From Diphasiastrum complanatum (Eukaryota > Streptophyta > Lycopodiopsida > Lycopodiales > Lycopodiaceae): 64,000 nt of DNA. Shown here piece after piece: positions 11,771 to 29,077 of the stretch. Location: positions 8,139,411-8,203,410 of the forward strand of contig CM055097.1 of assembly GCA_029204225.1 (NCBI GenBank). The letters are read 5' to 3'. The translations under genes and the position numbers were made by a program. The notes beneath the pieces were generated by a model. The model was not told the DNA's origin and searched no databases. It saw only the letters and a list, made by a program, of their open reading frames with translations. The stretch's first letter is position 1. Each line of letters starts with the position of its first letter.

Positions 11771-14700
11771 ATGGCAGCAGCAGGAAGTATAGGCCTTTGC
11801 TGCAACCCAATTCATCAGCATCATCATCGCTTTTTCTATTCTGATCCTTCTCATCATCCTCATAATTCCATAACCATGGCCATGGCAGCACAAACTTGGA
11901 TGACCAGCAGCTTGGAGGAGGAAGGTGACTGCTTGCTCTGCTCTGGTTTTGATTTATGCTGCTATTTCTTCTTCTTTTTCTTCTTAGTAAGGTTTGATGG
12001 GCTACTAGATGCCTGCGTTCTTGATGGGTTTTGGGTTATGCAGGCGAAGCAGCCAGAGTAGACGGGCTGTGGCAGCAGTTCTTCTCGGATCCTTCGCAGT
12101 GGCGGGACAGAAGGTCTGATAAGGTGAGATGTAAACGAACATGCTCGACTTTACAGCTGGGTCTAATCCAGGTTGCGTTGATAAATTTGATTTAGTTTTG
12201 CTTTTGCACAGTTATGGGTTTTTGCAAGAAATTCAGATTGCAGTACTTACACGCTATATGTGATTACGTTCACTAGTGCTTCGTCGCTTAGATTTGTGTG
12301 GATAGCTCAGCAGCTTTTTGTACGCCTGCTTTGATGATGTCAATCGACTCAATTCCAGCATTTGATATCATTTTACCTTGTTTGCTGGAAGCTGTGAATG
12401 CTCATGTTGTACGCTGGTAGTTTTTTCAGAGAAATCCGAGATTTCCCGACTTCACACATAAGACTGCAAAGAAGGCACTATGGATTGATAACAGGGTTAA
12501 TCCTTCTTGGGTACAGGCCAGACTAGCTGCCATGGTACAAGGTAAAGAACAAGGGCAATCCGTTTCTACAACATCTGAAATCTCTGGTATGCTTCTACTT
12601 TTTTCATGCTCCCTTCTTTCATCAGCATTGCCTGGCCGAGGAGACAGATGAATTTGCACTTTGCAGCTATGTTTTAAGCCACATCAAATTCCTTGATCAT
12701 ATTCCACCAAAGTTTTGATCCATGCTTGGGTTTAGGGCATGCAGCCAAAATCAAAATGGAACAGCTTTGGCAGGAGTTTTTCTTAGATCCATCGCAGTGG
12801 TGGAACAACAGATTTATTAAGGTGAGGTTATCCATCTTAACATGCCAATTGAAGATGACTTGTGAACTGAGGCTGTGAGGCTGGTTTTGGACTTATCTCA
12901 GGCTTCAGTTGATTTGGCTAATCACTTATGACTTGTGCCCAGTGAAAAGCTTTTCAATGGTGCTAGGGTTTTATGCATATGAGGCTGATGGTCATTGAAG
13001 TCCTTTTCCCTAAGTTGTAGCTATGTCTGTGATCTGTGTACTGTCATGTAGAAAAGTCCAAAGTATCCGGACTTTAAACATAAGATTACAGATGAGGGCC
13101 TATGGATTGAAGGTTGGCTAACACCTGCCTGGGTTAAACCAAAAATGGCCACAATGGCATTGGGTCAAATACAATCTGGTGGTGGATTGAGATCTTGGTA
13201 AGCTTTTAATCCGTGTGTGGACTGTGGAGCTCTAGGCTCAAGAATTGAGATACATGTCTTTTTTGTTGTTTTCTTCTTGAAGTTCACACTTTGCTTGCAG
13301 GCTGCCCCACTCCTTTTGCATAGGTGATGATGTGAGCAAACTCTGTCAGGAGGGACGATTGACAGAGGCGCTGCACATGGTGGAGCTTATTCTTCAGCAC
13401 AACATCAAACCTCCATTCAACACCTATGGTAGCCTTTTGAAGGGGTGCGTTAGAAGGAAAGCCCTGGTGGAGGGCAAACGAGTGCATGCCCTTGTAGTCC
13501 AAAGTGGACTCGATTCAGACATTTTCCTAGGAAAAGCCCTTGTTGACATGTATGCCAAGTGCGGTAGTGTGTTGGATGCACGCAAAGTATTCAACACAAT
13601 GCCTGAACAAAATGTATTTCTGTGGACTGCTATCATTTCAGCATATGCTGATCACGGACAAGGTGAGGAGGCTTTAAATCTCTTTCAGGAAATGCAGCAG
13701 GCAGGCATAGCACCGGACAAGGTTGCATTCCTTGTTGTCCTAAAAGCTTGTGCCAGGATTGCAGCCCTTGAACAGGGGAAACAGCTTCATTCCGACATAA
13801 TCAGAAGTGGCTTGGAGTCAGATGTGAATATCGGGAACACCCTTGTTGACATGTATGCAAAATGTGGCTCCTTAGAGCATGCACGTCAGGTGTTCTATAA
13901 GATGAGTGAGCGAACTGTGGTTTCATGGAGTGCGATCATTGCAGGATATGCACAGAATGGGCTTGCCAAGGAAGCCCTTGCTCTGTATGAGCAAATGGAG
14001 GAGGAAGGTGTGCAGCCAAACAATGTCACATATGTTATTCTCCTAAAAGTATGTGCCAGCATGGTAGCCCTGGAAAAAGGCAAGCAACTCCATTTAGACA
14101 TCATGAGGAATGGCTTTGATTCAGATGTGATTGTAGGGAACACGCTTGTTGACATGTATGCAAAATGTGGGTGCATAGAGCATGCACGTCAGGTGTTTGA
14201 CAAAATGGCTGATCGAGATGTTGTTTCCTGGAATTCGATGATTGCAGGATATGTAAAATGTGGGTGCATAGAGCATGCACGACAGATTTTTAACAAAATG
14301 AGTGAACGAAATGTGGTTTCATGGAGTGCGATGATTGCAGGATATGCACAGAATGGGCTTAGCAAGGAGGCCCTTGCTCTATATGAGCAAATGAAACAGG
14401 AAGATGTGCAGCCAAACAATGTTACATATGCTATTCTTTTAAAAGCATGTGCCAGCATTGCAGCCCTGGAAGAGGGCAAGCAGCTCCATTCCCACATCAA
14501 AAGAAGTGGCTTTGAGTTGGATGTGATTGTGGGCAGTGCCCTTGTTGACATGTATGCAAAATGCGGGCGCATAGAGCATGCACGTCAGGTGTTCAACAAA
14601 ATGAGTGAACGGGATGTGGTGTCATGGAATGCCATGATTGTGGGATATGCGCAGCAAGGGCTTGGCAATGAGGCTCTCACACTTTTGGAGCAAATGCAAA

Positions 14701-14936
14701 GGGAAGGCACGAAGCCTGATGAGGCCACATATGTTAGTGTTCTCTCTGCATGCAGCCATTCTGGTCTGGTGTCTGAGGGTCGTCATCTCTTTGATTCCAT
14801 GTGCAAAGGTCATGGTTTTACACCAACCATGAAACACTATGCCTGTGTGGTCGATCTTTTGGGCCGTTCAGGGTGCCTTGCTGATGCTGAGGATTTGATC
14901 ACTAAAATGCCGATTCAGCCCGATGTTGTGGTTTGA
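11771..14936 (+). CDS. PDF-motif/PPR fusion protein, copy 1 (C-terminally truncated)
   Basis: Six exons in consistent phase: 11771-11924, 12044-12123, 12430-12586, 12745-12821, 13052-13197 and 13301-14936, giving 749 residues. Exon 1 encodes a His/Ser-rich N-terminus, possibly an organelle transit peptide. Exons 2+3 and 4+5 each encode one PDF motif, the module known from plant organellar ssDNA-binding (OSB) proteins: LWQQFFSDPSQW then NPRFPDFTHK; LWQEFFLDPSQWW then SPKYPDFKHK. Each is split by a phase-0 intron. Exon 6 encodes tandem PLS-type pentatricopeptide repeats, with VDMYAKCG and VVSW.AMIAGYAQ motifs repeated. No OB-fold SSB domain is visible upstream. The reading frame ends at TGA 14934-14936, where copy 2 has a Trp codon; the E/DYW region beyond is degenerate. 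PPRs bind organellar RNA; the role of PDF motifs here is inferred. The gene may be a functional truncated form or a young pseudogene. Confidence 0.8.
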
Positions 14937-15433
14937 GTGACTTTACTTGAGGCGCCTAGAAACCATGGTGTGTGGAAATAGGAAGACTTGCCTTTGATTG
15001 TGCTATGAAGTTGGAACCAGAAAATGCTGCAGCTTATCTGCTGCCTTCAAACATCTACGCAGCAGTCAGCAGGATGGATGAGGTAGCAAAGATGAGAAAA
15101 GAAGTGAAGCATGCACATGTGAAAATGCACATGTGAAAAAAATGCCTGGGTACAGCAGGATGGAAGTTGGCAACCAAGGGCATGCGTTTCTTGTAGGCGA
15201 TGCAAGCCATCCACACAAAGGGATTCTGACCCAATTGGATAGATTGGTGGGTCTGACAAGAGAGGCAAGGTGGGTATATGCCTGCACGTCAATTGTGACA
15301 TGTATTGACATCAAGAAGAACCTTTGGGTGTGCGGTGACTGCCACAATGCCACCAAGATCATCTCACAAATTTGTTCAGGCCTGGATCCACCATGTTAGG
15401 GATGTCTTCTGTGCCTGCAGGGATTATGGGTGA
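14937..15433 (+). pseudogene. degenerate E/DYW tail of PDF-PPR copy 1
   Basis: Recognisable continuation of the PPR gene after the premature TGA. A one-base deletion near 14972, relative to copy 2, breaks the frame in the E region. Further on, MPGYSRMEVGNQGHAFLVGD belongs to the E+ region and NLWVCGDCHNATKI to the DYW deaminase core (the second zinc CxxC). The segment that should carry the HxE catalytic motif is missing, apparently deleted between about 15275 and 15305. The last codons read CACRDYG before TGA at 15431, a mutated form of the family's DYW terminus. The tail is therefore not translated as a working deaminase. Confidence 0.75.
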
Positions 15434-16223
15434 TGGCCTTGGTTGTCAAATGCTCTAGTCCGATCCCTGTGTGATCTTGGCCTGATTCTTGGTTTGATGT
15501 CCCATATCTTTTGTACTTTTGTCTATAAAGTAAGTCGTTCAGAGTAGAAGTTCAACATCGTAATTGGCATGAGGAGTGATAGCGGACAGGTGTTGAATGT
15601 TCATAGGCTCTGAACATCTGTGTTTAGAGCCGTATTCAATTGGCCTAAGGGCCAATCACGCCGGTAGCAGGCCGTGAGCAGCAAGCCTGCTACCATGTAA
15701 AAGCAGCCTTCAATGTAGTTTCAAGAAACGGCAAGTTTATAAGTTTTTACTTTTTTGATCGTAGTCGTGCTCAATGAGGATTTTTTCTCAAATTGAACAT
15801 ATATTTTTCAAGGTTTATTCTATTCATTCCTCTCATACTTTGTATAACATAATGGACCATCAAACTCTGAATTCAAAGTCACAAGCCAAATATTATCAAC
15901 ATATCACGAGAAGCTTGTCTTATGTGCATTCAAATCATTAATAAACAAAAAAACAAAATTGCACTTTAGACCATTTTAAAAGCACAATGCTCAAACTCTC
16001 ACCTAAGATTAACACCTCAGCTTTTAGCAAATCATCATAGTAACTTATTGCTATTGCAGCAAAGCTAAAAAAAAGCCTCACAAGCTACATGCTTAGAAAT
16101 GGATCCATTAGCAAAAGTTGTGGATAGCACACCACAAACTCATCCATAAAATTAGAATTTGTCTCTTACCAGAATCTCAATCGGATACAATCGCAGAGTC
16201 ATCAACATGTGATTTGTACCATC

Positions 16224-16277
<54 letters not shown>

Positions 16278-25322: not shown

Positions 25323-25789
25323 TCACCAACAATCGGCACAGGAACACAATCTGTCCTTACAACGTCGGACTTCGTTTGCATCCATCACAATGATCTCATG
25401 TCTGAAAAATTTTGAGATGATCTTGGTGGCATTGTGGCAGTCACTGCACACCCAAAAATTCTTCTTCATGCAGATAGGTATCCCAGGGGACGTGTAGATG
25501 AGCCCAAAAGCAAATTTGTCCTTACAACGTCGGACTTCGTTTGCATCCATCACAATGATCTCGTGTCTGAAAAATTTTGAGATGATCTTGGTGGCATTGT
25601 GGCAGTCACTGCACACCCAAAAATTCTTCATGCAGATAGGTATCCCAGGGGACGTGTAGATGAGCCCAAAAGCAATGGCCACCTTCTCACTGGTTCACAC
25701 AAAGCAATCTCCTCCTCGTCCTCCACATTGTGCAGCACAAATGCTCATATCAGGCATGCACCCTGCTTCCTTCATCGACCCCACCAGTT
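25323..25789 (-). pseudogene. degenerate DYW tail of PDF-PPR copy 2, with tandem duplication
   Basis: Read on the minus strand after the stop at 25790, the E+/DYW region continues through several frame changes. One is an extra A in the 'LDKL' region near 25783, the next lies just after MPDMS. Where the family has the catalytic HSEK motif, the DNA reads gaaccagtgagaag: one base of the His codon is deleted. A clean frame resumes with AIAFGLIYTSPG and NFWVCSDCHNATKI. The last 55 codons are then repeated in tandem. The terminus reads CSCADCW in place of a DYW ending. The deaminase active site is therefore lost. Confidence 0.75.
25352..25672 (-). repeat. 165-base in-frame tandem duplication of the DYW C-terminus
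   Basis: The words 'tgtccttacaacgtcgg' through 'gatgagcccaaaagcaa' occur twice, starting at 25352 and 25517, nearly identical. The only length difference I see is a 3-base 'ttc'. A 165-base period equals 55 codons, so the frame is kept across the duplication. The near identity suggests a recent event. Confidence 0.85.
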
Positions 25790-28700
25790 TTATCCAATTC
25801 GGCCCAAAACTCCTTGATTGCCTACAACAAAGGATTGCACTTGATTGTCAAGTTCAATCCAGCAGCACCCAGGCATTTTTTCCTCACCTACATCCTTCAT
25901 TTCTTTTCTTATCTCGGCTACCTCATCCGGCCTGCCAGCTGCTGCATACATGTTTGATAGCAGCACATAAGCTGCAGCATTTCCTGGTTCCAACTTCACA
26001 GCGCAATCAAAGGCATGTCTTCCTATTTCCAAATGGCCATGAATTCTAGCAGCACCAATCAAAGTTATCCATATCACAGCATCAGGCTGAATTGGCATGT
26101 TGTTGATGAAGTCCTCAGCATCAGCCAGGCACCCTGCACGGCCCAGAAGATCGACTATGCAAGCATAGTGTTCCATGGTTGGTGTGATACTGTCACCTTT
26201 ACACATGGAATCAAAGAGATGACGACCTTGATCTACTAGGCCAGAACGGCTGCATGCGGAGAGAACACTAACATACGTAGCCTCATCAGGCTTCATGCCT
26301 TGCCTTTGCATATGCTCCAAAAGTGTGAGAGCCTCCTTGCCCAGCCCTTGTTGCGCATATCCCGCAATCATCGCAGTCCATGACACCACATCTCGCTCAC
26401 TCATTTTGTTGAACACCTGACGAGCCTGCTCTATGCACCCACATTTTGCATACATGTCAACAAGGGCACTATCCACAATCACCTCCGACTCAAAGCCACC
26501 TTTTTTTATCTGGGAACGTAGCTGCTTGCCGAGTTCCAAAGCTGCAATGCTGGCACATACTTTTAGGAGAATAGCATACGTGACATTGTTTACCTGCACA
26601 CCTTCCTGTTTCATTTGCTCATACAGAGCAAGGGCATCCTTACCAAGTCCATTCTGCGAATATCCTGCAATCATGGCAGTCCATGACACCACACTTCGTT
26701 CATGCATACTATCAAACACCTGATGTGCATGCGCCATGCTCCCACATTTTGCATACATGTCAACAAGGGCACTGCTCACCATCTCATCCGATTCAAAGCC
26801 ACTTCTGATGATTTGGACATGGAGCTGTTTGCCCTGTTCCAGGGCTGCAATGCTAGCACAAGCTTTTAAGAGAATAACATATGTGACATGGTTTGGCTGC
26901 ACACCTTCCTGTTTCATTTGCTCATATAGAGCAAGGGCCTCCTTGGCACGCCCATTGTGTGCATATCCTGCAATAATTGAATTCCATGAAACCACATTTC
27001 GTTCACTCATTTCTTCGAACACTTGATGCGCATGCTCTATGCACCCAGATTTTACATATCCTGCAATCATCGAATTCCATGAAACCACATCGCGTTGAGT
27101 CATTTTGTCAAACATCTGCTGTGCATGCTCTATGCAGCCGCATTTTGCATACATGTCAACAAGGATATTTGCTATAACCACATCTGACTCAAACCCACTC
27201 TTAATGATGTCGGAGTGGAGCTGTTTGCCCTGTTCCAGAGCTGCAACTAAAGCACAAGCTTTTACGACAACAACAAATGCAACCCTGTCTGGTACTATGC
27301 CTGTCCATTGCATTTCCCGAAATAGATTAATAGCCTCTTCACCTTGTCCGTGATCACCATATGCTGAGATGATAGCAGTCCATGAAAACACATTGTGTTC
27401 AGGCATTGTGTTAAATACTTTGCGTGCATCAGTCACACTACCGCACTTGGCATACAAGTCGATAAGGGTTTTCCCTAGGAAAATGTCCGAATCAAGTCCA
27501 CTTTCGACAACAAGAGCATGTACTCTCTTGCCCTCCGCCAAAGCTTTCCTTCGAGCACACTCTTTCAAAAGGTCAGCATATGCTTTGATTGGAGCTCGAG
27601 TATTTTGCTTGACCATAAGCTCCACCATAAGCAATGCCTCTTTCAATCGTCCCTCCTCACAAAGTTTGCTCAAATGATCACCATCATAAAAGAAGTTGGG
27701 CGCCCTGCATGATTTGTATAATGAGTTCAAAGAAATATGAAAATGTTTCAATATTGAAACACCAACAACAAAGAAGATATGTCGTGCTCTCAGCCCTGAA
27801 CCCAAAGCTTCATAACACAAACTGGATTTAAACCATACCGCGATCTCAATCCACCAGCAGATTGTAGTTGACCCAATGCTGTGGCTACCTTTGCTCCGAC
27901 CCAGGTGGGGTTCAGCTGACCTTCAATCCATAGGCCCTCATGCGTCCTTTTATGTTCAAAGTCCGGGTACTTTGGACTTCTCTACATAACACTACACAGA
28001 TCAGCAGATATAGCTTCAATTTAGGGCAAATAACTACAATAACCAATCAGCCTCATATATAAGTCCAACACCATCCTCACAGCCTCAGTTTACAAGTCAT
28101 CTTCGATGGGTGTAAAGATGGATAGCCACACCTTGATAAATCTGTTGTCCCACCACTGCGATGGATCTGAGAAAAACTCCTGCCAGAGCTGTTCCATACG
28201 GACTACCTTGGCTGCAAGCCCTAAACCACCATGCATCAGAACTTTAGCACACTATAGTTAAGATGTGGACGTGGATTTGAACACCTCCACAAATTGATCT
28301 CCACTCAGCCAGGCAATGCTGTTGAAGTAAGAAAACATGACATAATGGAAGAATACCAGAGATTTCAGGTAGTGGAAAACCAGATTGCCCGTGTTCTTGG
28401 AATTGTACCATGTCGGCTAGCTTGGCATGTACCCAAGGGGGATTAAACCGATTGTCAATCCATAATGCCTTGTTTGCAGTCTTATGTTTGAAATCCGGAA
28501 ATCTCGGCTTTCTCTGAAAAAAAATACGAGCATGCAGCCTGAGCAGCCATAGCTTCCGCAATACTCGAAACAGCGTTGTTGTTATTGCAATTTGCACCAC
28601 AACATTCCAAAAGCAAACTAAATAGAATATATTGACGCAGCCTGGCTCAGAATAAACTGCAAAGTCCAACATCTTTAATAACTGCCTTGAAAGGAACACA

Positions 28701-29077
28701 TATATACATCTATATCACAAAGTAAAAGTTTTCATCTCACCTTATCAAACCTTTTGTCCCACCACTGCGAAGGATCCGAGAAAAACTGCTGCCACAGCCG
28801 TTCAACTCTGGCTGCTTCGCCTGCAAGCCCCATCCCCATTCCATTCATAGCCAACCCAACCCGCCAGCAGCAGCACGTCCAAAAAATCGAGTAGCACAAA
28901 CACATGCAGAAATATTAGTAGTCCATGACACTTAACCAGCTAACTTATTAAAACACGAGAAGAAGAAATAACAGCAGAGATCAAAACCACGACAGAGCTC
29001 AATTCTCACGTTCCTCCTCCAACCGTACCTATCATCGAACTTTGTGCCGCCATCGCCATCGCCATGGCCATGGCCAT
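25790..29077 (-). CDS. PDF-motif/PPR fusion protein, copy 2
   Basis: Minus-strand exons: 29077-29029, 28820-28741, 28513-28357, 28211-28132, 27981-27839 and 27704-25790, giving 807 residues in a continuous frame. The N-terminus begins with five Met-Ala pairs. Exons 2+3 encode PDF motif 1 (LWQQFFSDPSQWW, then PRFPDFKHK) and exons 4+5 PDF motif 2 (LWQEFFSDPSQWWDNRF, then SPKYPDFEHK). Exon 6 encodes about a dozen PLS-type PPR motifs (DMYAKCG, VVSWTAMIAGYAQ) and an E region, ending at a stop just downstream of VVGNQGVLGRIG. Exons 2 and 3 have exactly the same lengths as copy 1 (80 and 157); exons 4 and 5 differ by one codon. All intron phases match, so the fusion predates the duplication. Likely organellar, binding RNA through the PPRs and possibly ssDNA through PDF. 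The DYW tail beyond the stop is degenerate. Exon 1 needs a donor at 29028, upstream of the homologous site, to stay in frame. Confidence 0.82.

Follow-up and report, generated by a model that had tools for sequence, protein, structure and literature searches.

Could the PDF motif of OSB proteins and a PLS-type PPR array be parts of one protein, and what would such a protein do? The question was raised by a gene on the forward strand (11771-14936) of the window, which is the whole 64,000-nt stretch of Diphasiastrum complanatum DNA that was analysed. In the accessible parts of two papers, ssDNA binding by OSB proteins is ascribed to their PDF motif (PMC6963530, PMC4166229), and purified OSB proteins are reported to favour ssDNA over dsDNA or RNA (PMC4166229).

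Exon structure of the window gene

Six exons were found in the window gene, with all five introns of the GT-AG type, and the spliced CDS of 2250 nt encoded 749 aa without stop or frame break. Exon 1 (11771..11924, this and all following parts of the gene on the + strand) contained the ATG and a 51-aa N-terminal leader, a possible organelle-targeting region, in a frame open up to a GT donor. The first half of PDF motif A (LWQQFFSDPSQW..) was encoded by exon 2 (12044..12123), whose matches elsewhere in the genome had about 51-88% identity, partial ones included, and the second half (PDFTHKTAKKALWIDNR..) together with a linker was encoded by exon 3 (12430..12586), which had at least 150 genome matches. 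PDF motif B was divided in the same way between exon 4 (12745..12821, first half, LWQEFFLDPSQWWNNR..) and exon 5 (13052..13197, second half, PDFKHKITDEGLWIEGW..), the latter also with at least 150 genome matches and with the fusion donor at its end. Exons 4-5 were a repeat of exons 2-3, with 52% and 39% identity over the aligned parts, and both motifs were split by an intron at the identical position. Intron 5 (13198..13300, 103 nt) separated the PDF module from the PPR exon and would bring an immediate TAA if retained. Exon 6 (13301..14936) encoded the PLS-type PPR array and ended with a TGA (14934-14936) within E1.

An earlier note on this DNA had claimed that the PDF exons splice in frame onto the PLS-PPR exon, and the cumulative exon phases (1, 0, 1, 0, 2) and the junction (13197/13301) were recovered exactly as described there. 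The Pfam search of the predicted protein, which the same note had proposed, gave PF13041 with E 8.5e-100, in 11 stretches of exon 6, and PF01535 in 10; the P-L-S order that places the array in the PLS class was judged by eye from the translation. That no OB-fold is visible was also borne out, since Pfam returned no family at E<=10 within the N-terminal 233 residues. No Pfam PDF profile matched the window protein, and a PDB search gave no relative of the PDF part at E<=10. The two PDF motifs were recognized by alignment with paralogs and OSB-like loci of the same genome, and their label is based on P-D-F-x-H-K, the tryptophans, a length of about 50 aa and published OSB descriptions, OSBs being compared by description only.

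The window contained another family member, a second PDF-PPR gene, on the - strand (25326..28821). It had PDF A at 28821-28741/28513-28358, PDF B at 28203-28132/27981-27841 and a PPR match at 27700-26072, with the frame open until 25793, into the E/E+ region, and its DYW domain (25694-25326) was broken and in part duplicated. Related matches with near-equal scores were located just left of the window (G000:C6:8130188-8132632, + strand). In addition, a simple repeat lay in a chance open frame (RERERE run) at about 16230-16275 (+) of the window, the position being estimated from the translation.

PDF-PPR genes in the genome

The window's own assembly (1.745 Gb, 5176 contigs) was searched, and two arrangements were distinguished. 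For class I, in which PDF exons are spliced to a PPR exon, 68 loci were merged into 54 regions (the window's included) and three were added later, giving 57 regions. These were picked because their PDF or PPR sequence resembles that of the window gene, and there are near-identical pairs among them. PDF exon(s) were found 80-176 bp upstream of a PPR match on the same strand in 57/57 regions, a figure that describes the order of parts in the PDF-PPR family and not in all PPR genes, since the regions were chosen by similarity; at one of them (on C18) the PPR match started deep within the array. The fusion intron had a GT donor in all 57 and an aligned AG acceptor in 47, while the ten without AG at this place comprised some alignment offsets and some possibly broken genes. 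Its length ranged from 76 to 172 nt (n=47, those with AG) and fell into all three mod-3 classes (19, 18 and 10), so that most genes need splicing to keep the frame. The pattern went well beyond what chance would give: for the PDF-internal intron of the 57 regions, AG preceded 91/91 second halves and GT followed 90/98 first halves.

Among 77 PPR matches with an N-terminal part, at least 65 had a PDF match upstream (56 within 400 bp and 9 within 1300 bp); for the other 12 there was none among the matches listed, and 3 of these 12 had one by region inspection or by the PDFKHK pattern. The long frames at three class I loci (L069-L071) were considered as proof of fusion and dropped, because the introns are still there, with lengths of 117-135 nt that are multiples of 3 and free of stops.

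In class II, half a PDF motif and the PPR array shared one continuous frame. Four such loci (L086-L089), picked because the PDF match fell in a long frame, had frames of 867, 653, 924 and 754 aa, with the first PDF half directly upstream. Since both parts lie in a single stop-free frame, the fusion holds here without any assumption of splicing at the junction. A 102-residue junction query gave at least 150 matches, of which 81 spanned PDF and PPR and 79 of these were stop-free, a number that fell to 54 places after grouping of equal bit scores because many were near-identical pairs. In an AlphaFold model of L086 (4-row alignment) the PPR solenoid was confident from about residue 41 to 680, while most residues of the half PDF and of the DYW part had a pLDDT below 50, and no confident PDF fold was obtained.

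PDF-PPR matches often came as equal-score pairs, on the same chromosome or on small contigs (for example C8:2311524/C8:2607393 and C12:40308094/C12:40553815), which are perhaps recent duplications or haplotype copies retained in the assembly.

A one-off chimera was ruled out by this genome-wide family. The earlier note had called the architecture unfamiliar, and this stood insofar as no PDF-PPR protein was found in the open-licence literature in the parts available, a report elsewhere being possible; the single odd gene that it had in view turned out to be one of a large family. The terms OSB and PDF motif did not occur on look-up in the accessible text of PMC9478123 and PMC12548569; the displayed 'pdf' matches in the former were names of files.

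Link to DYW editing factors

DYW hallmarks were present at the C-terminal ends of several family members, namely HSEK, CGDCH or CSDCH and GDYW in L069-L071, and the PG box, HSEK, CxDCH and a terminal DYW in L086 and L087. HxE, CxxC and a DYW end, taken as marks of an intact domain, occurred together in all five (L069, L070, L071, L086 and L087). The terminus of L089 was DCW, and L088 had no DYW in its frame. The family architecture is predicted to be PDF-PPR(PLS)-E-E+-DYW.

The codon pattern of PDFKHK had 326 matches in the genome versus 4 for the reversed control, and at least 87 of the best 150 among 472 first-look DYW candidates had a same-strand PDF match at 0.8-5.5 kb upstream. As controls, PDF positions shifted by 60 kb gave 2 and the opposite strand within 5.5 kb gave 1. 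The PDF match sets were incomplete, so 87/150 is a lower bound; the remaining 63 DYW domains had no PDF among the matches listed, and the motif may be genuinely absent from some editing factors. Both counts contain near-identical duplicates, some of them on small contigs.

Since some members end in an intact DYW deaminase, RNA editing would be the simplest role of the family; in the window copy this enzyme is gone. Intact members, with their OSB-type N-terminal part, probably act in organellar C-to-U editing, the location and the editing being what we infer. They resemble known PLS-class PPR-DYW editing factors in the PLS array and, for intact paralogs, in E/E+, DYW, PG box, HSEK and CxDCH, while PDF-PPR genes add N-terminal PDF motifs and the window copy stops within E1. 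PPR proteins with another added domain, such as PPR-SMR and PPR4 with RRM, are known. These also join a PPR array to a second nucleic-acid-related domain; however, that domain is a different one, and a large share of the DYW genes found here have PDF.

Truncation of the window gene and selection

A tryptophan is conserved in E1 of PLS-PPR proteins, and the TGA of the window gene occupied exactly its position (paralogs: ..DAVIWRTLL..). A decayed E1-E2-E+-DYW relic followed on the + strand (14937..15435, end approximate), with frameshifts, an internal deletion and a PF14432 match (E 9e-7) at 15082-15396. When 14701 to about 15455 was aligned at nucleotide level with three intact-DYW paralogs, each alignment had 13 frameshifting gaps, all 3' of the TGA, the real number of frameshift events being below 13 because a deletion of about 90 nt was split by the aligner into several gaps. 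With E1 cut short by a stop and the relic downstream frameshifted, an intact E-E+-DYW end was not found in the window gene; it is a truncated family member without E, E+ and DYW, in which the PDF and PPR parts are open.

Ten class I C-terminal ends were inspected, with DYW intact in three (L069-L071, which were picked for long open frames) and broken in seven (the window gene, L002 and L004-L008). C-terminal loss was thus repeated around the window gene, with E or DYW broken in 6/6 inspected close relatives. As the second window gene is broken as well, this branch may be decaying.

It is possible, and we hold it as a tentative reading, that the window copy is a mere pseudogene of the family whose product has no consequence. 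The E1 stop, the frameshifted relic and the broken ends of the second window gene and the six close relatives favour such decay, but the 2250-nt CDS and five introns were undisrupted, against several disruptions in the relic of about 500 nt. The loss of E, E+ and DYW with splice sites, both PDF motifs and PPR array kept suggests either an RNA binder without a deaminase or a gene in early decay. The window copy may bind RNA as a PLS-only protein, compete with or assist intact paralogs, or be decaying.

Selection also bears on the pseudogene reading. For exon 5, dN/dS (Nei-Gojobori) among paralogs was 0.40, with 44 of the 54 sequences unique; exon 3, with 27 unique of 32, had 0.28. The window versus the others gave 0.33 and 0.28, respectively, and the window PPR part had 0.25-0.37 against eight paralogs. 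PPR changes private to the window gene, relative to 26 non-redundant paralogs, gave an omega of 0.13 at the strictest threshold (7 N, 4 S), 0.28 at a looser one (18 N, 9 S) and 0.33 at the loosest (34 N, 20 S), all with small counts; the PDF exons had too few private changes for a judgement on selection. Purifying selection has acted in the family and in the history of the window gene. This range of 0.13-0.33 speaks against a mere pseudogene, but the window lineage is in part older than the truncation, so a low omega is no proof that the truncated form functions.

Origin of the PDF module

Two OSB-like loci with a PDF second half, L084 (G000:C13:6164700-6166300) and L085 (G000:C4:14880200-14881600), were identified from matches at C13:6165208 and C4:14880787 to a PDF consensus probe. 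The intron border within the motif was at the same place in both loci and in the PDF-PPR genes, which points to acquisition of the motif along with its gene structure. The SSB profile PF00436 had 12 genome matches, 4 of them above the curated cut-off, and no convincing PDF motif lay within about 1.5 kb of these 12 loci. The PDF motifs of L084 and L085 were 12-53 kb downstream, on the same strand, of SSB-like matches (C13:6218540, C13:6198153 and C4:14868730, all below the cut-off), and these two loci may be genuine OSB genes whose introns are very long. In the accessible part of PMC4166229, the column that appears to be for Selaginella has N.D. for OSB, and a loss in Pteridophyta is proposed. 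In the prokaryotic contigs no PDF relative was found by a scan limited to close relatives.

A tree of PDF second halves, built on a short alignment, included 12 class I genes, 4 class II loci and the 2 OSB-like loci. In class I the A copies grouped together and the B copies grouped weakly (0.704); the OSB-like pair grouped with 0.968, apart from the PDF-PPR sequences, and the class II copies were placed next to A, not as a single clade. The window gene shares with OSB proteins the PDF motif of about 50 aa, and its two motifs are within the one to three of OSB. Unlike OSB proteins, it has no OB-fold or SSB-like domain in Pfam, and its PDF motifs are N-terminal and fused to PPR.

Proposed role of the PDF-PPR proteins

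We favour, with a probability of roughly 0.7, the reading that the window gene belongs to a PDF-PPR(PLS)-E-E+-DYW multigene family, of which intact members would edit organellar RNA with the PDF motifs adding a single-strand grip. The PPR array would pick the organellar RNA and the C-terminal DYW would deaminate a cytidine. PPR arrays bind RNA with their N-terminal repeats toward the 5' end, so the PDF module would contact the strand 5' of the PPR site. There, one or more N-terminal PDF motifs would give sequence-independent single-strand binding, which could provide extra affinity or keep the factor near nascent transcripts. The PDF module is most likely such a supplementary grip on RNA, a target that we infer, like the organellar location and C-to-U editing. 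One point may tell against it by analogy, as OSBs, the only proteins with measured PDF binding in the literature found and in the parts available, prefer ssDNA.

In a bolder reading, much of the editing machinery of this lineage would have been remade by fusion of a module of the ssDNA-binding type to PPR-DYW, and deaminases would be tethered at strands opened by transcription for co-transcriptional editing in the nucleoid. This appears unlikely. In the extreme case, if true, the PDF tether could put a programmable deaminase onto organellar ssDNA.

Still less probable is a nucleoid factor connecting organelle DNA maintenance with RNA, as the earlier note had proposed. The published ssDNA-binding role of the motif in the accessible OSB papers and the purifying selection on the PDF exons of the family would be consistent with it, but Pfam gave no OB-fold, the setting of the family is RNA editing, and the two OSB-like loci were set apart (0.968) in the tree of short PDF halves.

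Two adjacent genes, a PDF-only protein ending at the intron-5 TAA and a separate intronless PPR gene, are very unlikely: retention of intron 5 would give a 205-aa PDF protein (..GLRSW-stop) and an in-frame ATG stands between the preceding stop and the first repeat in 13/56 regions, but such an ATG is absent in 43/56, the window included, the exon-5 frame stops within 55 codons in 53/56 regions if the fusion intron is retained, the PDF-PPR spacing is 80-176 bp in 57/57 regions, and the 79 stop-free frames contain both parts together. As judged from reading frames and splice sites, the PDF-to-PPR fusion in the window gene is real.

The usual description of an editing factor is one of PPR repeats with E/DYW. 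With at least 87 of the best 150 DYW domains downstream of PDF motifs in this genome, the PDF module would be a regular part of the editing machine in this lineage. The many natural fusions, with and without DYW, make it possible to ask if a generic single-strand binder aids PPR targeting or couples editing to transcription, and PDF-PPR fusions may possibly be of use for engineered PPR editors.
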